Shown piece after piece: positions 200 through 7,870 of a DNA stretch of 7,870 nt. Under the pieces are notes generated by a model. The model was not told where the DNA came from and did not search any database. It saw nothing but the letters and a program-made list of their open reading frames with translations. This DNA is from Kiritimatiellia bacterium. Its GTDB lineage: Bacteria > Verrucomicrobiota > Kiritimatiellia > UBA8416. The DNA lies in the NCBI GenBank assembly GCA_007126175.1, contig SLBU01000078.1:1-7870 (forward strand), given 5' to 3'. Made by a program: the position numbers and the translations under genes. Position 1 is the stretch's first letter; each line of letters starts with the position of its first letter.

Positions 200-952
200 T
201 CATGCAGTCATACCTCCCGCCGTTTTGCGCCACCAGGCAAGATATTCCACATTACCGGCAGGACCAATCAAAGGCGATTCTACACAACCGAGCCACTGAA
301 GCGAGAGTTTGTTTTCGCCAAAACCACGAATCTTCTGCACCACAGCCTCCCGTACCACCGGATCACGCACCACACCACCACGGCCAACCTCTGCACGCCC
401 CGCCTCGAATTGTGGTTTGATCAACGTCACCATCTCCCCCCCCGGAACCAGAACCGCCACAACCGGCGGCAATACCAGCTCCAACGAGATAAACGACACA
501 TCAAACACGGCAAATGCAGGTGGATACGGCAGATCAGCAGGCTGCAAATAACGCACATTACAACGCTCCAGCACCGTGACGCGCGGGTCTTGCCGCAGCC
601 GTTCATGTAACTGCCCCCTGCCAACATCTGCCGCCACAACGTGCGTGGCGCCATGCACCAGCAAACACTCCGTAAAACCACCAGTCGATGCCCCCACATC
701 CAAGCCTTGCAACCCCGCAACAGACCAGCCAAATGCCTCAAAAGCACCCTCCAACTTGTCGCCGCCGCGGCTTACAAAGCGCGACTGCGCCTTCACCCGC
801 AGCACCGCATCGCTGGCAATCTTCACACCCGCCTTGTAGGCGGGATGCCCGTCTACCGAAACCGCACCAGCCAGAATCAAACGCTGCGCTTGCTCCCGAC
901 TCTCACACAGCCCCCGCGCAACCGTTAGCACGTCTAAACGTTCTTTTGCCAA
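200..952 (-). CDS. tlyA: TlyA family rRNA (cytidine-2'-O)-methyltransferase
   Basis: The 250-residue protein matches the TlyA family (historically 'hemolysin A') in length and layout. Residues about 5-65 form an S4 RNA-binding domain (RLDVLTVARGL, then AQRLILAGAVSVDG). The rest is an FtsJ/RrmJ-like SAM-dependent methyltransferase domain. Visible motifs are SRGGDKLE (61-68), the SAM loop LDVGASTGGF (84-93), DVSFIS (151-156), KPQFEAG (179-185) and GNVEYL (233-238). K66, D151, K179 and E236 fit the K-D-K-E catalytic tetrad. Characterised homologues methylate ribose on 16S and/or 23S rRNA; which substrate is used here cannot be read from sequence. The start codon is TTG: an in-frame TAG lies eight codons upstream and no ATG or GTG lies between, and the S4 motif begins at residue 5. 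A TAGG-rich leader gives an AGG seven bases before the TTG. The probable NAD kinase follows 34 bases downstream. Confidence 0.95.
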   Translation of the reverse strand: MAKERLDVLTVARGLCESREQAQRLILAGAVSVDGHPAYKAGVKIASDAVLRVKAQSRFVSRGGDKLEGAFEAFGWSVAGLQGLDVGASTGGFTECLLVHGATHVVAADVGRGQLHERLRQDPRVTVLERCNVRYLQPADLPYPPAFAVFDVSFISLELVLPPVVAVLVPGGEMVTLIKPQFEAGRAEVGRGGVVRDPVVREAVVQKIRGFGENKLSLQWLGCVESPLIGPAGNVEYLAWWRKTAGGMTA

Positions 953-1086: not shown

Positions 1087-1857
1087 ATGGATATCAGACT
1101 TTTTATCAGCACATTCCTGCTTATTTTTCTTGCCGAGCTAGGCGACAAAACCCAACTCACCGCCATGGCTCGCGCGGCCGGATCGGATGGTGCCAAATGG
1201 ACCGTATTCGCTGCGGCCGCCGCCGCACTTTTACTCTCAACCCTACTGGCCGTCACACTCGGGCGTACGATTGCACGCTTGGTACCCGATCATATTGTCC
1301 GCTTACTCGCCGCCCTCCTTTTCATCAGCTTCGGCATGGTGCTGCTTGTCGGCGCACTACAACGGGGCGCACGCGCAAGCCAGCCAGTCGCGCACCCCCC
1401 AACGACAAACGGCATGATGATGCGCGCCATCATGCACATTGCCGCAGAATTCGAGGAAGCCTCCGCGGCCGATTATGCCGCCTTGGCACGCGAAACCAAT
1501 GACCCGGCCGTACGGCGCTTATTGCTGCAATTGGAAGCCGATGAACGCGCCCATCTCCAAATGATGCATACGATCGGCCAGGATCATGCCGAGACCCGCT
1601 TCGAACAACTCGACCGGACCGACCTCCCCTCCGGAACCGCGCTGCAACATGATGTGGCTCTCAGCGACCGCCCGATCCTCACACACGCCCTCGAACATGA
1701 GCAGGCCACCATGCAGTTTTATCTCGAACTGGCAAACCGGACCCCGATCCCCGCCCTCCAGCGCACCTTTACCTCCCTCGCCAATGCCGAGCATGCGCAC
1801 ATTGCACGCATCAAAATGCTGCTTGCCGATCATGGGGCATACGTGCAGGATGAATGA
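1087..1857 (+). CDS. Fusion of a UPF0016/GDT1 half-transporter with a ferritin/rubrerythrin-like di-iron domain
   Basis: The 256-residue protein has two parts. Residues 1-92 are one UPF0016/GDT1 (TMEM165) unit: three hydrophobic segments (about 2-17, 38-58, 68-91), with the family signature E-x-G-D-K-T as ELGDKT at 17-22. The family moves Mn2+ or Ca2+ across membranes. Most members carry two such units, so this single unit would have to dimerise. A Pro-rich linker (about 93-110) leads to a four-helix ferritin-like domain (111-250). Its metal-ligand pattern is complete: E123-x6-Y130, E153-x2-H156, E205-x6-Y212, E235-x2-H238. Positive charges in the first loop and after the third segment suggest the ferritin part is cytosolic. 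The role is inferred as metal export or storage coupled to iron oxidation. The ATG at 1087 fits the family N-terminus; the frame is open back to 688, but that stretch is antisense to tlyA. An in-frame ATG at 985 would add 34 unlikely residues. No clear Shine-Dalgarno is visible. Confidence 0.85.
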   Translation: MDIRLFISTFLLIFLAELGDKTQLTAMARAAGSDGAKWTVFAAAAAALLLSTLLAVTLGRTIARLVPDHIVRLLAALLFISFGMVLLVGALQRGARASQPVAHPPTTNGMMMRAIMHIAAEFEEASAADYAALARETNDPAVRRLLLQLEADERAHLQMMHTIGQDHAETRFEQLDRTDLPSGTALQHDVALSDRPILTHALEHEQATMQFYLELANRTPIPALQRTFTSLANAEHAHIARIKMLLADHGAYVQDE

Positions 1858-1933: not shown

Positions 1934-3364
1934 ATGGCAACGCAATCCCTTTCCCTTTCCCAAAGCCAGCGCATGCAGATGGTTATGGCACCCCAACTGC
2001 GACAGTCGCTCGAAATGCTCCAAGTCCCCATACTCGAACTGCGCACCATGATCCAAAAAGAACTCGAAATGAATCCAACGCTCGAGGAACTCGCCCCCGA
2101 AGGACCCCAACTCGAAATTGAAACGAGCCCCGGCGAACCCGACGACACCAGCGAAATGAGCTTCCAGAAAGAATTCGAAGTTCTTGCCAAGCTCGACGAT
2201 GAATGGCGCGATTATTTCTTTCAGGACATCGACAACCGCCCCGGAACGCCCGAAGCAGAAGAAAAGCATCAATACCTGATGGACTCGCTGCCCCAGCAGG
2301 AGTCGCTCCAGGAACATCTCATGCAGCAGCTCACATATACCGATCTGACCGAAGAAGATCAGCGCATTGCCGAACTGCTTATCGGTTCCATTGATGATGA
2401 TGGCTACCTCGCGACCCCCCTCGACGAACTCGCCGATACCAGCCCTTATGATACGGATCATTTACAACATGTATTACTCGCCATTCAGGAGTTTCATCCG
2501 GTCGGTGTCGGTGCGGCCGACTTGCGCGATTGCCTCCTCCTACAACTTGAGCGCATGGGCAAGGCCGACTCTCTCGCGGGCGATATCGTCCGTCATCATC
2601 TCGAAACTCTGGCCCGCCACAAATTCGATCAGATTGCCCGCACATGCAAAACCACCCCCGATAAAGTGCGCGAGGCCGCCGCATTCATTACCACCCTCGA
2701 CCCCGCCCCCGGCCGCGCCTTCTCGGCCACCATTGCAACCTACGTCATTCCCGAAGTTGTCGTTCGCAAGATCGACGGTGCCTATACCATCATCCTCAAC
2801 GATGATCGCCTGCCCCATCTACGGATCAGCCAGCATTATCGCACCCTGATGGAAAACCCAGACACCCCGCGCGACGTCAAAACCTACATTCGCGACAAAC
2901 TGCGTGCCAGTGCCTTCCTCATGCGCAGTATCGATCAAAGGCAGCGCACCATTTACCGCATTGCCGACGCAATCGTGAAACATCAAATCGGCTTTCTCGA
3001 TCATGGCGTAGCGCATCTGCGCCCCATGACCATGGCCGAGGTTGCCAGCGAGGTCGGCGTGCACGAAACCACGGTCAGTCGGGCCGTACATCAGAAATAT
3101 ATGCGTACCCCCCAAGGCACCTTCGAAATGAAATACTTCTTTACCACCGGCCTCAAAACCGATGCCGGTTCCGACATTTCCAACGAGTCGGTCAAAAGGT
3201 TGATGCAGGATCTGGTCGCTGCGGAAAACCCGGCCAAACCGCTTTCGGACCTTACGATCATGCAGCAATTGCATCAACAAGGCATCAAGGTGGCACGGCG
3301 CACCATCGCCAAATACCGCGATATCCTGCACATCCCGCCATCGCACCTCAGGAAGCGAGGCTGA
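1934..3364 (+). CDS. rpoN: RNA polymerase sigma-54 factor (RpoN)
   Basis: The 476-residue protein is full length for sigma-54, the factor that directs RNA polymerase to -24/-12 promoters and needs an AAA+ enhancer-binding activator. Region I is the Gln/Leu-rich N-terminus (LSQSQRMQMVMAPQLRQSLE, from residue 8), which contacts activators. An acidic region II follows (about 50-100), rich in Glu and Asp. The core-binding domain spans roughly 105-300. The helix-turn-helix domain is at about 362-403 (MTMAEVASEVGVHETTVSRA begins at 365). The RpoN box that reads the -24 element is intact at 454-463 (ARRTIAKYRD). The ATG at 1934 fits the family N-terminus and has GGA five bases upstream. mfd follows after 7 bases, so the two are probably co-transcribed. 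No activator gene or -24/-12 promoter is in the window, so the regulon cannot be judged. Nothing suggests damage. Confidence 0.97.
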   Translation: MATQSLSLSQSQRMQMVMAPQLRQSLEMLQVPILELRTMIQKELEMNPTLEELAPEGPQLEIETSPGEPDDTSEMSFQKEFEVLAKLDDEWRDYFFQDIDNRPGTPEAEEKHQYLMDSLPQQESLQEHLMQQLTYTDLTEEDQRIAELLIGSIDDDGYLATPLDELADTSPYDTDHLQHVLLAIQEFHPVGVGAADLRDCLLLQLERMGKADSLAGDIVRHHLETLARHKFDQIARTCKTTPDKVREAAAFITTLDPAPGRAFSATIATYVIPEVVVRKIDGAYTIILNDDRLPHLRISQHYRTLMENPDTPRDVKTYIRDKLRASAFLMRSIDQRQRTIYRIADAIVKHQIGFLDHGVAHLRPMTMAEVASEVGVHETTVSRAVHQKYMRTPQGTFEMKYFFTTGLKTDAGSDISNESVKRLMQDLVAAENPAKPLSDLTIMQQLHQQGIKVARRTIAKYRDILHIPPSHLRKRG

Positions 3365-3371
3365 GTGCGCC

Positions 3372-6300
3372 ATGCCAAAGCATGACAGCTTTCAAACCTG
3401 GCGCAACATTCTCGACACCTGCGCCAGCCACCCGCGCCACATTTCGCTGCCCCCCGCAGCTTCTTCGGCACAAGCCTTTGCTGCCATTGCGATGCAGCAA
3501 ACCACCAAACGCCCCCTGCTCTGGATCGTGCCCGATGAGAGCGCATTGTCCACCGCCCTACGCGACCTGCATGCACTCCACCCCGCAGGCGACACCCTGC
3601 ACCTGCCTTTCCCGCCGGTATATGCGGATGCCGCCTCACAACAGCATGCCGACCTCGATGGCACAGGCACACGCCTGCGCACCCTCTATCGCATCGCGGA
3701 CATACAAGCATCCGGACAGGCACCTATTGTCGTGGCCCCGCTAGCTGCCGTAACCCAGCCAACCTTGGCGCCTAGGCAAATCCGTACACTCTCATTCCGG
3801 ATGGACGTCGGCGAACAAGCCAACCTCGAACGTGTTCGTATATTTCTCGAGCACAGCGGGTATGCTAGAGAGGCCGAAGTACTCGAAAAGGGCCAATATG
3901 CCGGACGCGGCGGCATCCTCGATGTCTGGCCCGCCGACACGGCATTTCCACTGCGCGTGGAATGGTTCGGCGATGAAGTCGAATCCATACGCCTCTTCGA
4001 TCCCATCACCCAGCGCACGATCGAGCGCACCGCCACGGTTCTGCTTACCCCCCTGCAGGAAACGGCCGGCCCAGAAGCCTCCCTGCTGGATCATATCCCG
4101 GCCGTCGCAGCCATTCTCTGGTTCGACTACCACAGTGCCGCCGAGTCCTTGCACGACACCCCACCCACCACCAACAACCCGGAGCATTGGCTGCATCCAG
4201 CAGGCGACGTTCTCACCATCGACTTTGGAAGCCTCGAACCTGACACCACCCTGCCCGCCTTTACCGAGATCGAACATGCCGTCCGCTTGCCCGCCACCAG
4301 TGGCACCACACAATTGACACACGCACGCCAGAACTTTCTCGCCCATCTCCTGGCGGCAAAAAAGGCCGGCTGGAATATATCCCTCTTCTTCGACACCATC
4401 GGTACACGCGACCATTTCCTGCACCATGTCATGCCGCCGGGCGTTGCCCCCTTCCACATCGAAATCGGCTGCCTATCTGAAGGGTTTGCCTGCCCTGCCA
4501 TCCAAACCATGTACGTGGCCGAATCCGATCTGTATGGCCGCAAACGCTTCCCGGCCCAAACCGACACCATCGCCAGAAAGGCCAGACGCTACGCCGGCTC
4601 CAGGATCAATGACTTTACCGACATGGAAGCCGGCGATCTCGTGGTGCACACGGATCATGGCGTGGGACGCTATCTCGGTGTGCAAACCATCCAGTTCAAC
4701 AACAAAACCGAGGAGGTTTTGGCGATTGCCTATGCGGACGATGCCAAGCTGTACGTGCCTGTTGCGCATGCCCATCTCCTGAGCCGCTACGTCGGTATGG
4801 CCGGCAGCAGCACCGCGCTGCACCGGCTCGGGGGCAAACGCTGGACCCGCGAGAAGGATGCCGCCCGCTCCGCTGTCATGGATCTCGCCGCCGAACTCCT
4901 CGAAATCCAGGCCCGCCGCAACCTGTTGCAGGGCCATACCTTTTCAAAGGATGGCCCCCTCCAACACGAATTCGATCAAGCCTTCCCCTTTGTCGAAACC
5001 CCTGACCAGATCCAGGTCATCGAGGAAGTCAAAACCGACATGGAAGCCGCCCGTCCCATGGATCGGCTCATCTGCGGCGATGCAGGCTACGGCAAGACCG
5101 AAGTTGCCATGCGCGCAGCCTTCAAGGCCGTATCCGACCACATGCAGGTGGCCGTACTCGTTCCCACCACCGTCCTGGCCCAACAGCACTTCCAGACCTT
5201 CTCGGAACGAATGGCCGGCTTCGACGTTCGCATCGCCGTCATCAGCCGCTTTCAAACGCAAGCCCAGCGCAAGCGAACCTTGCAAACCCTGCACCATGGG
5301 GGCATCGACATCATCATTGGCACCCATGCCCTCGTCCAGCCCGGCGTACGCTTTGCAAACCTCGGACTCGTCATCATCGATGAAGAGCAGCGCTTTGGTG
5401 TTGCACACAAGGAACGCCTCAAAACCCTGCGTGCCCTCGTCGACGTCCTAACACTCAGCGCCACACCCATCCCGCGAACCCTCTATATGAGTATGACCGG
5501 GGCCCGCGACCTGAGCTTACTGCGCACCGCACCGCGCGAACGCGTCCCCATCGAAACCATCGTCACAACCGCAACCGAAGAGAATATCACCCAAGCCATC
5601 CGCTATGAGCACCGCCGCGGCGGACAAGTCTACTTTCTACATAACCGCGTCGTCTCCATCGCACGCCTCCGCGAAAAAATCTCTGCATGGGTGCCCGAGG
5701 TGCGCATCGAGATGGCCCATGGCCGCATGCAGGCCTCCGAATTGTCTGCCGTCATGCAGCGCTTTGTCGCCGGGCACATCGATGTCCTCCTCTGCACGAC
5801 CATCATCGAAAGCGGCATGGACATACCACGCGCCAACACCATGATCATCGATCGGGCCGACCGCTTCGGCATTGCCGACCTCTATCAACTCCGCGGACGC
5901 GTCGGACGCGGCGACCGCAAGGGCTTTGCCTACCTCCTGCTGCCACGGCATGGCATTGTCGACAAAGCCGCACGCGAACGCATCCAGGCCATCCGCCGTC
6001 ACAGCGGACTTGGCGCAGGCTTCAACCTCGCCATCAAGGATATGGAAATTCGCGGGGCCGGCAACATCCTGGGGGCTGCCCAGAGCGGACACATCTCCGC
6101 CATCGGCTTCGGCCTCTACTGCCAGCTCCTGCAACGCGCTGTGGCACGCATGCAAGGCTTGCACATTCCCGAAATCGAAACCGAAATGCGCCTCGACTTC
6201 ATCGCCACCACCGAAGCCGACAGCCCCCGCCAAGCCCTCGCCTGCGTTCCCATCGACTACATTGCCGACGAACGCTTGCGAATTGCCATCTATCGACGCA

Positions 6301-6596
6301 TTGCAGAGGCTGACAGCAGTGTCGCCCTGCAAGACCTGCAAACTGAACTCGTCGACCGCTTTGGCCCCCTCCCCGAAACGGTCACGCGTTTACTTGCCAT
6401 TGCCCGCATCAAATACCAGGCCACACAATGCGGCATTACCCTCATCGAAACACGCCAGACACGCCTTCTCCTTTTCCGCGGCAACGACCCCATCACCGAA
6501 CCCGGCGGGAGCCTCCCCCGCCTCAAGACAACCAATCCAGACGCCAAACTCCGCGAAATCGCAGAATATCTCGACGCGGTGGCAGCGGCAACGTAA
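3372..6596 (+). CDS. mfd: Transcription-repair coupling factor (Mfd)
   Basis: Mfd is an ATP-driven DNA translocase that removes RNA polymerase stalled at lesions and recruits UvrA for excision repair. The 1074-residue protein is somewhat shorter than E. coli Mfd (about 1150) but has every domain. The N-terminal UvrB-homology part includes RGGILDVWP (179-187) and FGDEVESIRLFD (about 199-210). The RNA polymerase-interacting CarD-like domain starts near 411 with GDLVVHTDHGVGRYLG (421-436). The RecG-like translocase has Walker A GDAGYGKT (569-576), Walker B DEEQ (670-673) and motif VI QLRGRVGR (839-846). The TRG region follows at 881-916 (DMEIRGAGNILG, QSGHISAIGF). The C-terminal TRCF domain includes DRFGPLP (995-1001). 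As in other Mfd proteins, the UvrB-like part has no Walker motif. The ATG at 3372 is 7 bases after the rpoN stop; an AGG ends 12 bases upstream. The role in coupling repair to transcription is family knowledge. Confidence 0.97.
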   Translation: MPKHDSFQTWRNILDTCASHPRHISLPPAASSAQAFAAIAMQQTTKRPLLWIVPDESALSTALRDLHALHPAGDTLHLPFPPVYADAASQQHADLDGTGTRLRTLYRIADIQASGQAPIVVAPLAAVTQPTLAPRQIRTLSFRMDVGEQANLERVRIFLEHSGYAREAEVLEKGQYAGRGGILDVWPADTAFPLRVEWFGDEVESIRLFDPITQRTIERTATVLLTPLQETAGPEASLLDHIPAVAAILWFDYHSAAESLHDTPPTTNNPEHWLHPAGDVLTIDFGSLEPDTTLPAFTEIEHAVRLPATSGTTQLTHARQNFLAHLLAAKKAGWNISLFFDTIGTRDHFLHHVMPPGVAPFHIEIGCLSEGFACPAIQTMYVAESDLYGRKRFPAQTDTIARKARRYAGSRINDFTDMEAGDLVVHTDHGVGRYLGVQTIQFNNKTEEVLAIAYADDAKLYVPVAHAHLLSRYVGMAGSSTALHRLGGKRWTREKDAARSAVMDLAAELLEIQARRNLLQGHTFSKDGPLQHEFDQAFPFVETPDQIQVIEEVKTDMEAARPMDRLICGDAGYGKTEVAMRAAFKAVSDHMQVAVLVPTTVLAQQHFQTFSERMAGFDVRIAVISRFQTQAQRKRTLQTLHHGGIDIIIGTHALVQPGVRFANLGLVIIDEEQRFGVAHKERLKTLRALVDVLTLSATPIPRTLYMSMTGARDLSLLRTAPRERVPIETIVTTATEENITQAIRYEHRRGGQVYFLHNRVVSIARLREKISAWVPEVRIEMAHGRMQASELSAVMQRFVAGHIDVLLCTTIIESGMDIPRANTMIIDRADRFGIADLYQLRGRVGRGDRKGFAYLLLPRHGIVDKAARERIQAIRRHSGLGAGFNLAIKDMEIRGAGNILGAAQSGHISAIGFGLYCQLLQRAVARMQGLHIPEIETEMRLDFIATTEADSPRQALACVPIDYIADERLRIAIYRRIAEADSSVALQDLQTELVDRFGPLPETVTRLLAIARIKYQATQCGITLIETRQTRLLLFRGNDPITEPGGSLPRLKTTNPDAKLREIAEYLDAVAAAT

Positions 6597-6674: not shown

Positions 6675-7870
6675 ATGGCAGCAGCTAAAAAAGATACATC
6701 AGCCAACATCATGGACGCACTCACATCGCTTTGTAAAAGGCGCGGTTTCATCTTCCAGACATCCGATATCTATGGCGGCCTGAACGGCTTCTGGGATTAC
6801 GGCCCCCTTGGTTCTCAACTCAAAAAGAACATCAAGGACGCCTGGTGGCACGATATCGTCCAGATCAACGAAAACATCGTCGGACTCGATTCCGCCATCA
6901 TCATGCACCCCCGCGTCTGGGAGGCATCCGGGCATATCGGAGGATTTTCCGATCCCATGGTCGATTGCAAAGCCTGCAAGAAACGCTACAAGGCCGACAA
7001 CCTGTGCGAGGAACAAGGGGCCGAATTACGCCAGGAAGGCAAAACCTTCCGGCTGCCCGATGGCATCGTCTGCCCCGCCTGCAAATCCAAGGATCTCACC
7101 GAACCGCGCGCATTCGACCTGATGTTCAAAACCTTCGTCGGCCCGGTCGAAGATGACTCCTCCGTCGCCTACCTGCGCCCCGAAACCGCACAGGGCATCT
7201 TTGCGCAATTTACCAATGTCATGGCTACCACGCGCCAGCGCGTTCCCTTCGGGATTGCCCAGATCGGCAAAGCCTTCCGAAACGAAATCAACCCCCGCAA
7301 CTACACCTTCCGCTCGCGCGAATTCGAACAAATGGAACTCGAATTCTTCGTGGAACCCGGTACCGATGCCCATTGGCACGAATACTGGATCAAGCAACGC
7401 CTGGCCTGGTACGAATCCGTGGGACTGCCGGCATCCTCTCTCCACCAGGACATACACCCACACGAGAAACTGGCCCATTATGCGTCGGCCTGCACCGATA
7501 TCGCCTACGAATTCCCCTTCGGCATACAGGAACTCGAAGGCATTGCCGCCCGCGGCAACTTCGACCTCAGCCGTCATGCCGAATTCAGTGGTAAATCCAT
7601 GGACTACATCGACCCCGTCACCAACGCACGGTTCGTCCCGCATGTGGTCGAGCCCTCAGCAGGCGTCGACCGCATCGCATTAGCCATCCTGTGCAATGCC
7701 TACAAGGAACAATGGGTCGGCAAAGAAAACAACGATATTATACCCGCCGAACCCGGCCAACAGCCACCACAAGGCTATGAAGCACGCACCGTCATGGAAT
7801 TTGCCCCACGCGTTGCCCCCATCAAAGCCGCCGTGTTCCCGCTGCTCAAGAACAAACCCGAACTCGTCGA
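6675..7870 (+). CDS. glyS: Glycyl-tRNA synthetase, single-chain alpha2 type, N-terminal 398 codons (runs off right edge)
   Basis: This class II aminoacyl-tRNA synthetase charges tRNA-Gly with glycine in the cytosol. It is the homodimeric archaeal/eukaryotic-like type also called GlyQS, unrelated to the alpha2beta2 GlyQ-GlyS enzyme. The start shows the family pattern CKRRGFIFQTSDIYGGLNGF then WDYGPLG (20-46). A four-Cys zinc insertion follows (C98-x2-C101 and C133-x2-C136). Further on are the glycine-recognition loop RPETAQGIF (168-176), class II motif 2 with FRNE (201-204) and EFEQMELEFF (216-225), and motif 3 EPSAGVDR (326-333, with R333). The anticodon-binding domain begins near 376 (FAPRVAPIKAAVFPL), and its remainder is outside the window. 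The ATG at 6675 has a good AGGG eight bases upstream. It has a probable promoter of its own after mfd. No damage is visible in the part seen. Confidence 0.96.
   Translation, partial: MAAAKKDTSANIMDALTSLCKRRGFIFQTSDIYGGLNGFWDYGPLGSQLKKNIKDAWWHDIVQINENIVGLDSAIIMHPRVWEASGHIGGFSDPMVDCKACKKRYKADNLCEEQGAELRQEGKTFRLPDGIVCPACKSKDLTEPRAFDLMFKTFVGPVEDDSSVAYLRPETAQGIFAQFTNVMATTRQRVPFGIAQIGKAFRNEINPRNYTFRSREFEQMELEFFVEPGTDAHWHEYWIKQRLAWYESVGLPASSLHQDIHPHEKLAHYASACTDIAYEFPFGIQELEGIAARGNFDLSRHAEFSGKSMDYIDPVTNARFVPHVVEPSAGVDRIALAILCNAYKEQWVGKENNDIIPAEPGQQPPQGYEARTVMEFAPRVAPIKAAVFPLLKNKPELV

Follow-up and report, generated by a model that had tools for sequence, protein, structure and literature searches.

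The human member of the GDT1 (UPF0016) family is associated with a disorder of glycosylation. The members studied so far transport Mn2+ (PMC7380456), and in the accessible text of that review the terms "iron" and "Fe2+" have 0 occurrences and iron transport is not ascribed to any GDT1 protein. A GDT1 unit is described as a set of three helices, and the two units of GDT1 proteins as antiparallel; in proteins with a single unit the charge bias is weak and pairing into homodimers is considered feasible, and one such protein, from Desulfovibrio magneticus, is reported to complement a yeast mutant on its own (PMC4067407).

The union of a ferritin-like di-iron domain and a metal transporter in a single polypeptide is known from MbfA, whose N-terminal ferritin-like domain is described as cytoplasmic, ferroxidase-active and needed for iron transport (PMC7762939), and as dimerising in solution (PMC4902296); the characterised MbfA proteins are confined, according to the same description, to alpha-proteobacteria (PMC7762939). 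A second point of comparison is EncFtn, in which the iron site is built from Glu32, Tyr39, Glu62 and His65 (PMC5012862) and lies across a dimer of two-helix chains (PMC5012862, PMC7762939).

The window analysed here, a stretch of 7,870 nucleotides from a Kiritimatiellia bacterium (contig SLBU01000078.1), encodes a protein in which a GDT1 unit is followed by a ferritin-like domain (Table 1). A full-text literature search, with most subscription papers outside its coverage, returned no paper on a fusion of GDT1/UPF0016/TMEM165 with a ferritin-like or rubrerythrin domain, in agreement with an earlier note on this DNA, made from the sequence alone, whose author knew of no described protein of this architecture; the single paper that one part of the search listed deals, judging by its title, with a hydrogenase-rubrerythrin. 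Both parts and the general idea of a transporter-ferritin fusion are already known; what is new is the combination, the order of the domains, the apparent EncFtn-type site in a single chain and the reversed charge pattern discussed below.

Table 1. Features of the fusion gene and its neighbours in the window (residue numbers refer to the fusion protein; counts refer to the 252 fusions among the matches listed)
Feature	Positions	Strand	Basis
Whole gene, one frame of 256 aa plus stop: one-unit GDT1 (UPF0016) with C-terminal ferritin-like domain	1087..1857	+	Pfam, homologues
GDT1 unit, residues 1-92	1087..1362	+	PF01169; model with broken helix 3-18/22-30, helices 34-65 and 68-98
Transport motif ELGDKT, residues 17-22	1135..1152	+	Sequence; invariant in 60/60 rows of alignment A1
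Linker, residues 93-107	1363..1407	+	pLDDT <50 at 96-106
Predicted four-helix di-iron ferritin-like domain, residues 108-256	1408..1854	+	PF02915; model and fold matches
Half-site 1, helix 1: E123, Y130	1453..1476	+	E in 252/252, Y in 240/252
Half-site 1, helix 2: E153..H156 (ExxH)	1543..1554	+	E in 242/252, H in 251/252
Half-site 2, helix 3: E205, Y212	1699..1722	+	E in 247/252, Y in 252/252
Half-site 2, helix 4: E235..H238 (ExxH)	1789..1800	+	E in 250/252, H in 244/252
S4/FtsJ methyltransferase	200-952	-	Neighbour in window
Sigma-54	1934-3364	+	Neighbour in window
TRCF (Mfd) helicase	3372-6596	+	Neighbour in window
Open-ended frame	6675-7868	+	Neighbour in window

The two domains and the iron-site residues

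Residues 8-83 of the window protein (P0001) match the GDT1 family PF01169 (E 6.1e-21, 75 bits, against a cut-off of 27), which bears out the earlier reading of ELGDKT, a form of the family motif E-x-G-D-(K/R)-(S/T), as the mark of a GDT1/UPF0016 half-transporter. The difference from single-unit GDT1 transporters is the addition of about 150 residues of ferritin-like sequence, the plain units found in the loci having approximately 79-121 aa. In this ferritin-like part the best Pfam match is Rubrerythrin (PF02915; residues 197-248, E 6e-9, 36.8 bits, cut-off 22.8), and the structural model predicts four helices, with good confidence, in the expected ferritin-like fold. When this model was compared with known structures by Foldseek, the single row at E <= 0.001 was the ferritin-like 1vjx; the search of solved structures by sequence had EncB 7s5c as its best match, at a non-significant E of 0.05. 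NCBIfam gave matches under threshold alone, among them, in the ferritin part, EncB_fam (29.6 bits, cut-off 90) and the MbfA profile FeExpMbfA (28.3 bits for the whole protein and 33.2 for the ferritin part, far below the cut-off of 450). Whereas MbfA has a VIT1/CCC1 transporter and an N-terminal ferritin, the fusion has a GDT1 unit and a C-terminal ferritin and carries no PF01988, and the reversed order of the domains that had been read from the sequence therefore stands. The comparison with rubrerythrin also reveals differences: no rubredoxin domain is found by Pfam, and the ligands follow the pattern of a glutamate plus ExxH, twice.

The same order of domains is present in at least 252 database proteins, of which 248 have one GDT1 unit and four have two. 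These 252 fusions (P0001-P0060 and P0122-P0313) are those among the matches listed in protein searches that took the best 120 of 140, 120 of 3524 and 120 of 340 matches, each from about 8000 scored candidates, and are not a census. Among the matches listed in the first search, the 59 further fusions (P0002-P0060) carry both Pfam domains at identities down to 31%, while seven proteins (P0202, P0207, P0215, P0216, P0218, P0220 and P0227), for which precomputed Pfam gives PF01169 alone, were counted as fusions by length and alignment. The existing source labels of many members are simply "rubrerythrin" or "TMEM165/GDT1".

The six ligands expected of a di-iron site (E123, E153, H156, E205, E235 and H238, or EEHEEH) are all present in the window protein, and the complete set is found in 241 of the 252 fusions among the matches listed; the four-helix domain with a full complement of ligands, as it was first described, is thus upheld by profile, model and fold matches together. 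The spacing of the residues is the same in both halves (E123/Y130/E153/H156 and E205/Y212/E235/H238) and equals that of the EncFtn half-site (E, Y+7, E+30, H+33), so that the domain resembles the EncFtn dimer site within one chain; in other words, it looks like an EncFtn dimer written as a single chain, both half-sites being held by one four-helix chain that is itself joined to a membrane unit.

The site is altered or gapped in the remaining 11 of the 252 listed fusions: P0059 is gapped, five have EHHQEM or EHHQEL (two of these five rows are named Lentisphaeria), two have EDHEDH, two ESHEEL and one EEHEEN, which implies that in some lineages the fusion has been retained although its standard metal site has not. 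Lentisphaeria-type rows in which EHHQEM or EHHQEL replaces the standard ligands are P0202, P0207, P0215, P0216 and P0220, and Lentisphaeria-type fusions with the same layout and length, likewise lacking the standard ligands, were seen at loci L109, L110 and L113 (genomes G309, G222 and G117). The ferritin-like domain of these ligand-altered fusions may have another role there.

The partner of the GDT1 unit and the side of the membrane

The model of the GDT1 unit of the window protein consists of a broken helix and two long helices at low confidence (pLDDT 50-78), and the same helix layout is predicted confidently for a relative with two units (P0017). Foldseek returned no row at E <= 0.001 for this two-unit model, and the MFS transporters at the top of its list, with an rmsd of about 22, were not trusted.

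Exactly one PF01169 match per genome was found in all 27 of the fusion genomes checked, including that of the window. The latter is 68.7% complete; 18 of the other 26 are at least 90% complete, and all 18 have one match. As no separate GDT1 partner was found in these 27 genomes, the fusion must pair with itself if it works like other GDT1 proteins. Taken with the natural two-unit versions described next, this count speaks for the dimeric transporter that the earlier note had imagined, and by sequence and analogy the fusion protein likely forms a homodimer. A unit of three helices requires a second one in antiparallel orientation, and therefore the side of the membrane on which the ferritin lies comes into question.

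In four relatives (P0017, P0018, P0019 and P0122) two GDT1 units precede the ferritin-like domain. The identity between the two units is 52-67% in these proteins, whereas the units of 50 ordinary two-unit proteins average 37% (26-56%). In a weak tree the two-unit fusions branch amid the one-unit fusions, apart from the ordinary two-unit proteins; the high identity and this position suggest that they arose by duplication inside the fusion lineage. To be counted as ordinary, a protein had to have 170-215 aa and two motifs, which holds for 50 of the 61 listed matches without ferritin (P0061-P0121).

The distribution of positive charge also separates the two groups. The number of positive charges on the side of the N- and C-termini minus that on the side of the central loop is +5, +3, +5 and +5 in the four two-unit fusions, and -2 to -9 (mean -5.4) in ordinary two-unit GDT1 proteins, negative in all 50 counted. 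The signs are unchanged without the C-terminal tail (+2, +1, +4 and +3 against -2 to -10), and among the 11 matches left out of the 50, 10 have the same sign and one differs (P0107, 175 aa with one motif, +1). The contrast of 4/4 with 0/50 has a Fisher p of 3e-6, the four being not independent by descent and representing about two lineages. Because the positive charge sits on the side of the termini, the C-terminus of the two-unit fusions, and with it the ferritin, is predicted to lie inside the cell, in the reverse of the orientation of ordinary two-unit GDT1 proteins. The ferritin domain amounts to a built-in marker of sidedness, so that the reversed charges of the two-unit relatives make the polarity and the dual topology of GDT1 proteins directly testable.

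In the one-unit form the charges of the window protein are nearly balanced (odd 4, even 5), and the mean bias, from counts that depend on the alignment, is weak: 162 fusions average +0.96, and the 74 plain single units taken from loci L021-L093 and L115-L123 average +0.32. A homodimer of dual topology would place half of the ferritin domains outside, and given this weak bias the ferritin of the one-unit fusion could lie inside alone or on both faces of the membrane.

A different arrangement occurs at a spirochaete locus (L045:5998-7012), where a plain GDT1 unit comes immediately after a GDT1 unit with a divergent C-terminal region. The two have opposite charge biases (1 on the N side and 5 on the C side in one, 6 and 2 in the other), which place the C-terminus inside. 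As two adjacent units of opposite bias, this pair is similar to the paired GDT1 genes of cyanobacteria; the difference is its C-terminal extension, which has part of the ligand pattern alone and no Pfam ferritin match. On the basis of their sequences, the two-unit relatives and the L045 pair read as two natural ways of supplying the partner.

Possible roles of the fused ferritin domain

The ferritin-like domain of MbfA is needed for transport and GDT1 members move Mn2+, and for these reasons a cytosolic metal-capturing domain that feeds a GDT1 exporter is proposed here. Two chains, each with a GDT1 unit of three predicted membrane helices, would pair; the EncFtn-type ferritin domain, predicted to be cytosolic from the charge counts of the two-unit relatives, would capture Fe2+ or Mn2+ present in excess, and it would either oxidise the metal or pass it to the GDT1 pair, by which it would be exported. 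For this proposal as a whole, drawn from sequence and analogy, we consider the balance of probability to be about even. The homodimer, the direction of export, the identity of the metal and the coupling of the domains we infer by analogy with MbfA, and the fusion is read as a counterpart of MbfA built around another transporter. Redox genes close to the fusion in G014, G334 and G027, described below, are also in keeping with this proposal. The family shows the MbfA idea on a different transporter in organisms whose source names point to Kiritimatiellia, Lentisphaeria, Spirochaetes, Planctomycetes and one Desulfobulbaceae record, and if it is true that the fusion moves iron, iron would be added to the substrates of GDT1 proteins. 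VIT1, a possible other iron exporter, is present in 6 of 27 fusion genomes, so that it is neither excluded by the fusion nor paired with it.

A more tentative version of the proposal, possible rather than probable, makes the fusion a second, independent ferritin-primed exporter, in which a single-chain EncFtn-type ferroxidase would feed a GDT1 dimer with iron. The one-unit form would insert both ways and hold the enzyme on either face of the membrane. Those of the lineages seen here that fixed the orientation, by duplication or by a partner gene, would keep the ferritin cytosolic, the duplicated ones by flipping the transporter relative to ordinary two-unit GDT1 proteins.

The alternative that survives best, which we find rather doubtful, is that the GDT1 dimer moves Mn2+ alone and that the di-iron domain gates it in response to Fe2+ or peroxide, holding the balance between iron and manganese. 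The studied GDT1 members are indeed described as Mn2+ transporters (PMC7380456), the ELGDKT motif is invariant in 60/60 rows and the fusion is retained even where the ligands are altered; however, a complete ferroxidase-type site that is so strongly conserved suits catalysis at least equally.

It is unlikely that the protein is a membrane-anchored peroxide scavenger, with a rubrerythrin-like di-iron domain for which the GDT1 unit is mainly an anchor or a supply of metal. Apart from the fact that Rubrerythrin is the best Pfam match of the domain, the argument for such a role comes from the surroundings of some fusions. In G014 (L127, G014:C74:5000-15000) the fusion is flanked by the genes for a glucose-6-phosphate dehydrogenase and a PF01182 protein (glucosamine-6-phosphate isomerase / 6-phosphogluconolactonase), and within about 5 kb there are two desulfoferrodoxin genes and two genes of the rubrerythrin family, one of the latter scoring exactly at the cut-off of Pfam. 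In G334 (L139:5990-7537) the adjoining gene on the same strand encodes a rubredoxin-domain pyridine-nucleotide (NAD(P)H) oxidoreductase with a rubredoxin-reductase C-terminal domain, and in G027 the opposite strand carries a rubrerythrin-family gene at a distance of about 0.5 kb. These are three cases in 20 regions, few of which were Pfam-scanned for neighbours, and do not constitute an enrichment figure. Desulfoferrodoxin, of a superoxide-reductase family typical of anaerobes, occurs in 16 of 21 fusion genomes and in 141 of the 366 remaining genomes of the same sample (Fisher p 0.0009), but this association is confounded by ancestry. The scavenger is further opposed by the retention of the transport motif in all 60 rows, by the doubling, and not the loss, of the GDT1 unit in four relatives, and by the lack of a rubredoxin domain in the window protein. 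An importer or periplasmic device, in which the ferritin would lie beyond the inner membrane and GDT1 transport would run the other way, is very unlikely: the near-balanced charges of the one-unit fusions make either insertion possible, but all four two-unit relatives and L045 place the C-terminus inside by charge.

Distribution, surroundings and origin of the fusion

The earlier note had asked whether the fusion might come from faulty assembly. An artefact of assembly or annotation is refuted by the homologues of the same order among the matches listed, which leave it practically no chance and establish a real single gene; fusions also lie on long contigs, such as one of 5.6 Mb (P0243) and the single contig of genome G117.

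The survey of genomes and phyla that had been suggested finds the fusion in 21 of 387 genomes from an even sample of the phylum (19 as a full-length single row, G216 as two adjoining rows and G015 split), together with names from several phyla. Among the 38 relatives, 13 have a GDT1 match: 11 are whole fusions, G015 has the fusion split over two contigs and G019 has a plain unit. The order of the window includes a Kiritimatiellae record (L014) whose protein is identical to that of G010, of the same order. The source names of the fusion proteins are Kiritimatiellia, Lentisphaeria, Verrucomicrobia, Brevinematales, Spirochaetales, Phycisphaerae and Planctomycetota, with one Desulfobulbaceae record; as the source genomes are mostly metagenome-assembled, single names may be misbinned. 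A scan of contigs with a single peptide pattern (at least 80 loci) gave locus titles of Kiritimatiellae, Brevinematales, Spirochaetes, Verrucomicrobia, Lentisphaerae and Planctomycetaceae. One apparent match to residues 1-157, at the myxococcal locus L064, was rejected: the locus has just a plain unit of 91 aa, and the three forward frames downstream are without a ferritin motif.

The neighbours in the window are ordinary housekeeping genes; the S4/FtsJ methyltransferase is presumably of the TlyA type, and the open-ended frame looks by eye like a glycyl-tRNA synthetase. No conserved operon or neighbour gene emerged from a comparison of 31 loci or from one of 26 loci, and in the former the largest cluster of neighbours after the fusion itself (five loci) proved to be a shadow frame on its opposite strand. 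Rfam, at gathering score over 20 sources, found no family and hence no known manganese riboswitch; scans for promoters and terminators found 1 and 2 sites, much as in shuffled sequences (0.7 and 1.1), and the PADLOC and plasmid searches had no match.

With regard to origin, 50 of the 97 inner branches of a tree of 88 columns are open. The one-unit fusion rows require 10 changes on the quick tree, at least two of which are forced by starred branches. A single origin of the fusion is unsupported, given these forced changes and the plain units that lie among the fusions, and on this tree the ferritin domain may have been gained or lost several times. Three plain GDT1 units from RUG-named and Oligosphaeraceae records (L023, L024 and L028) sit among the fusions in the weak tree, perhaps through loss of the ferritin domain.
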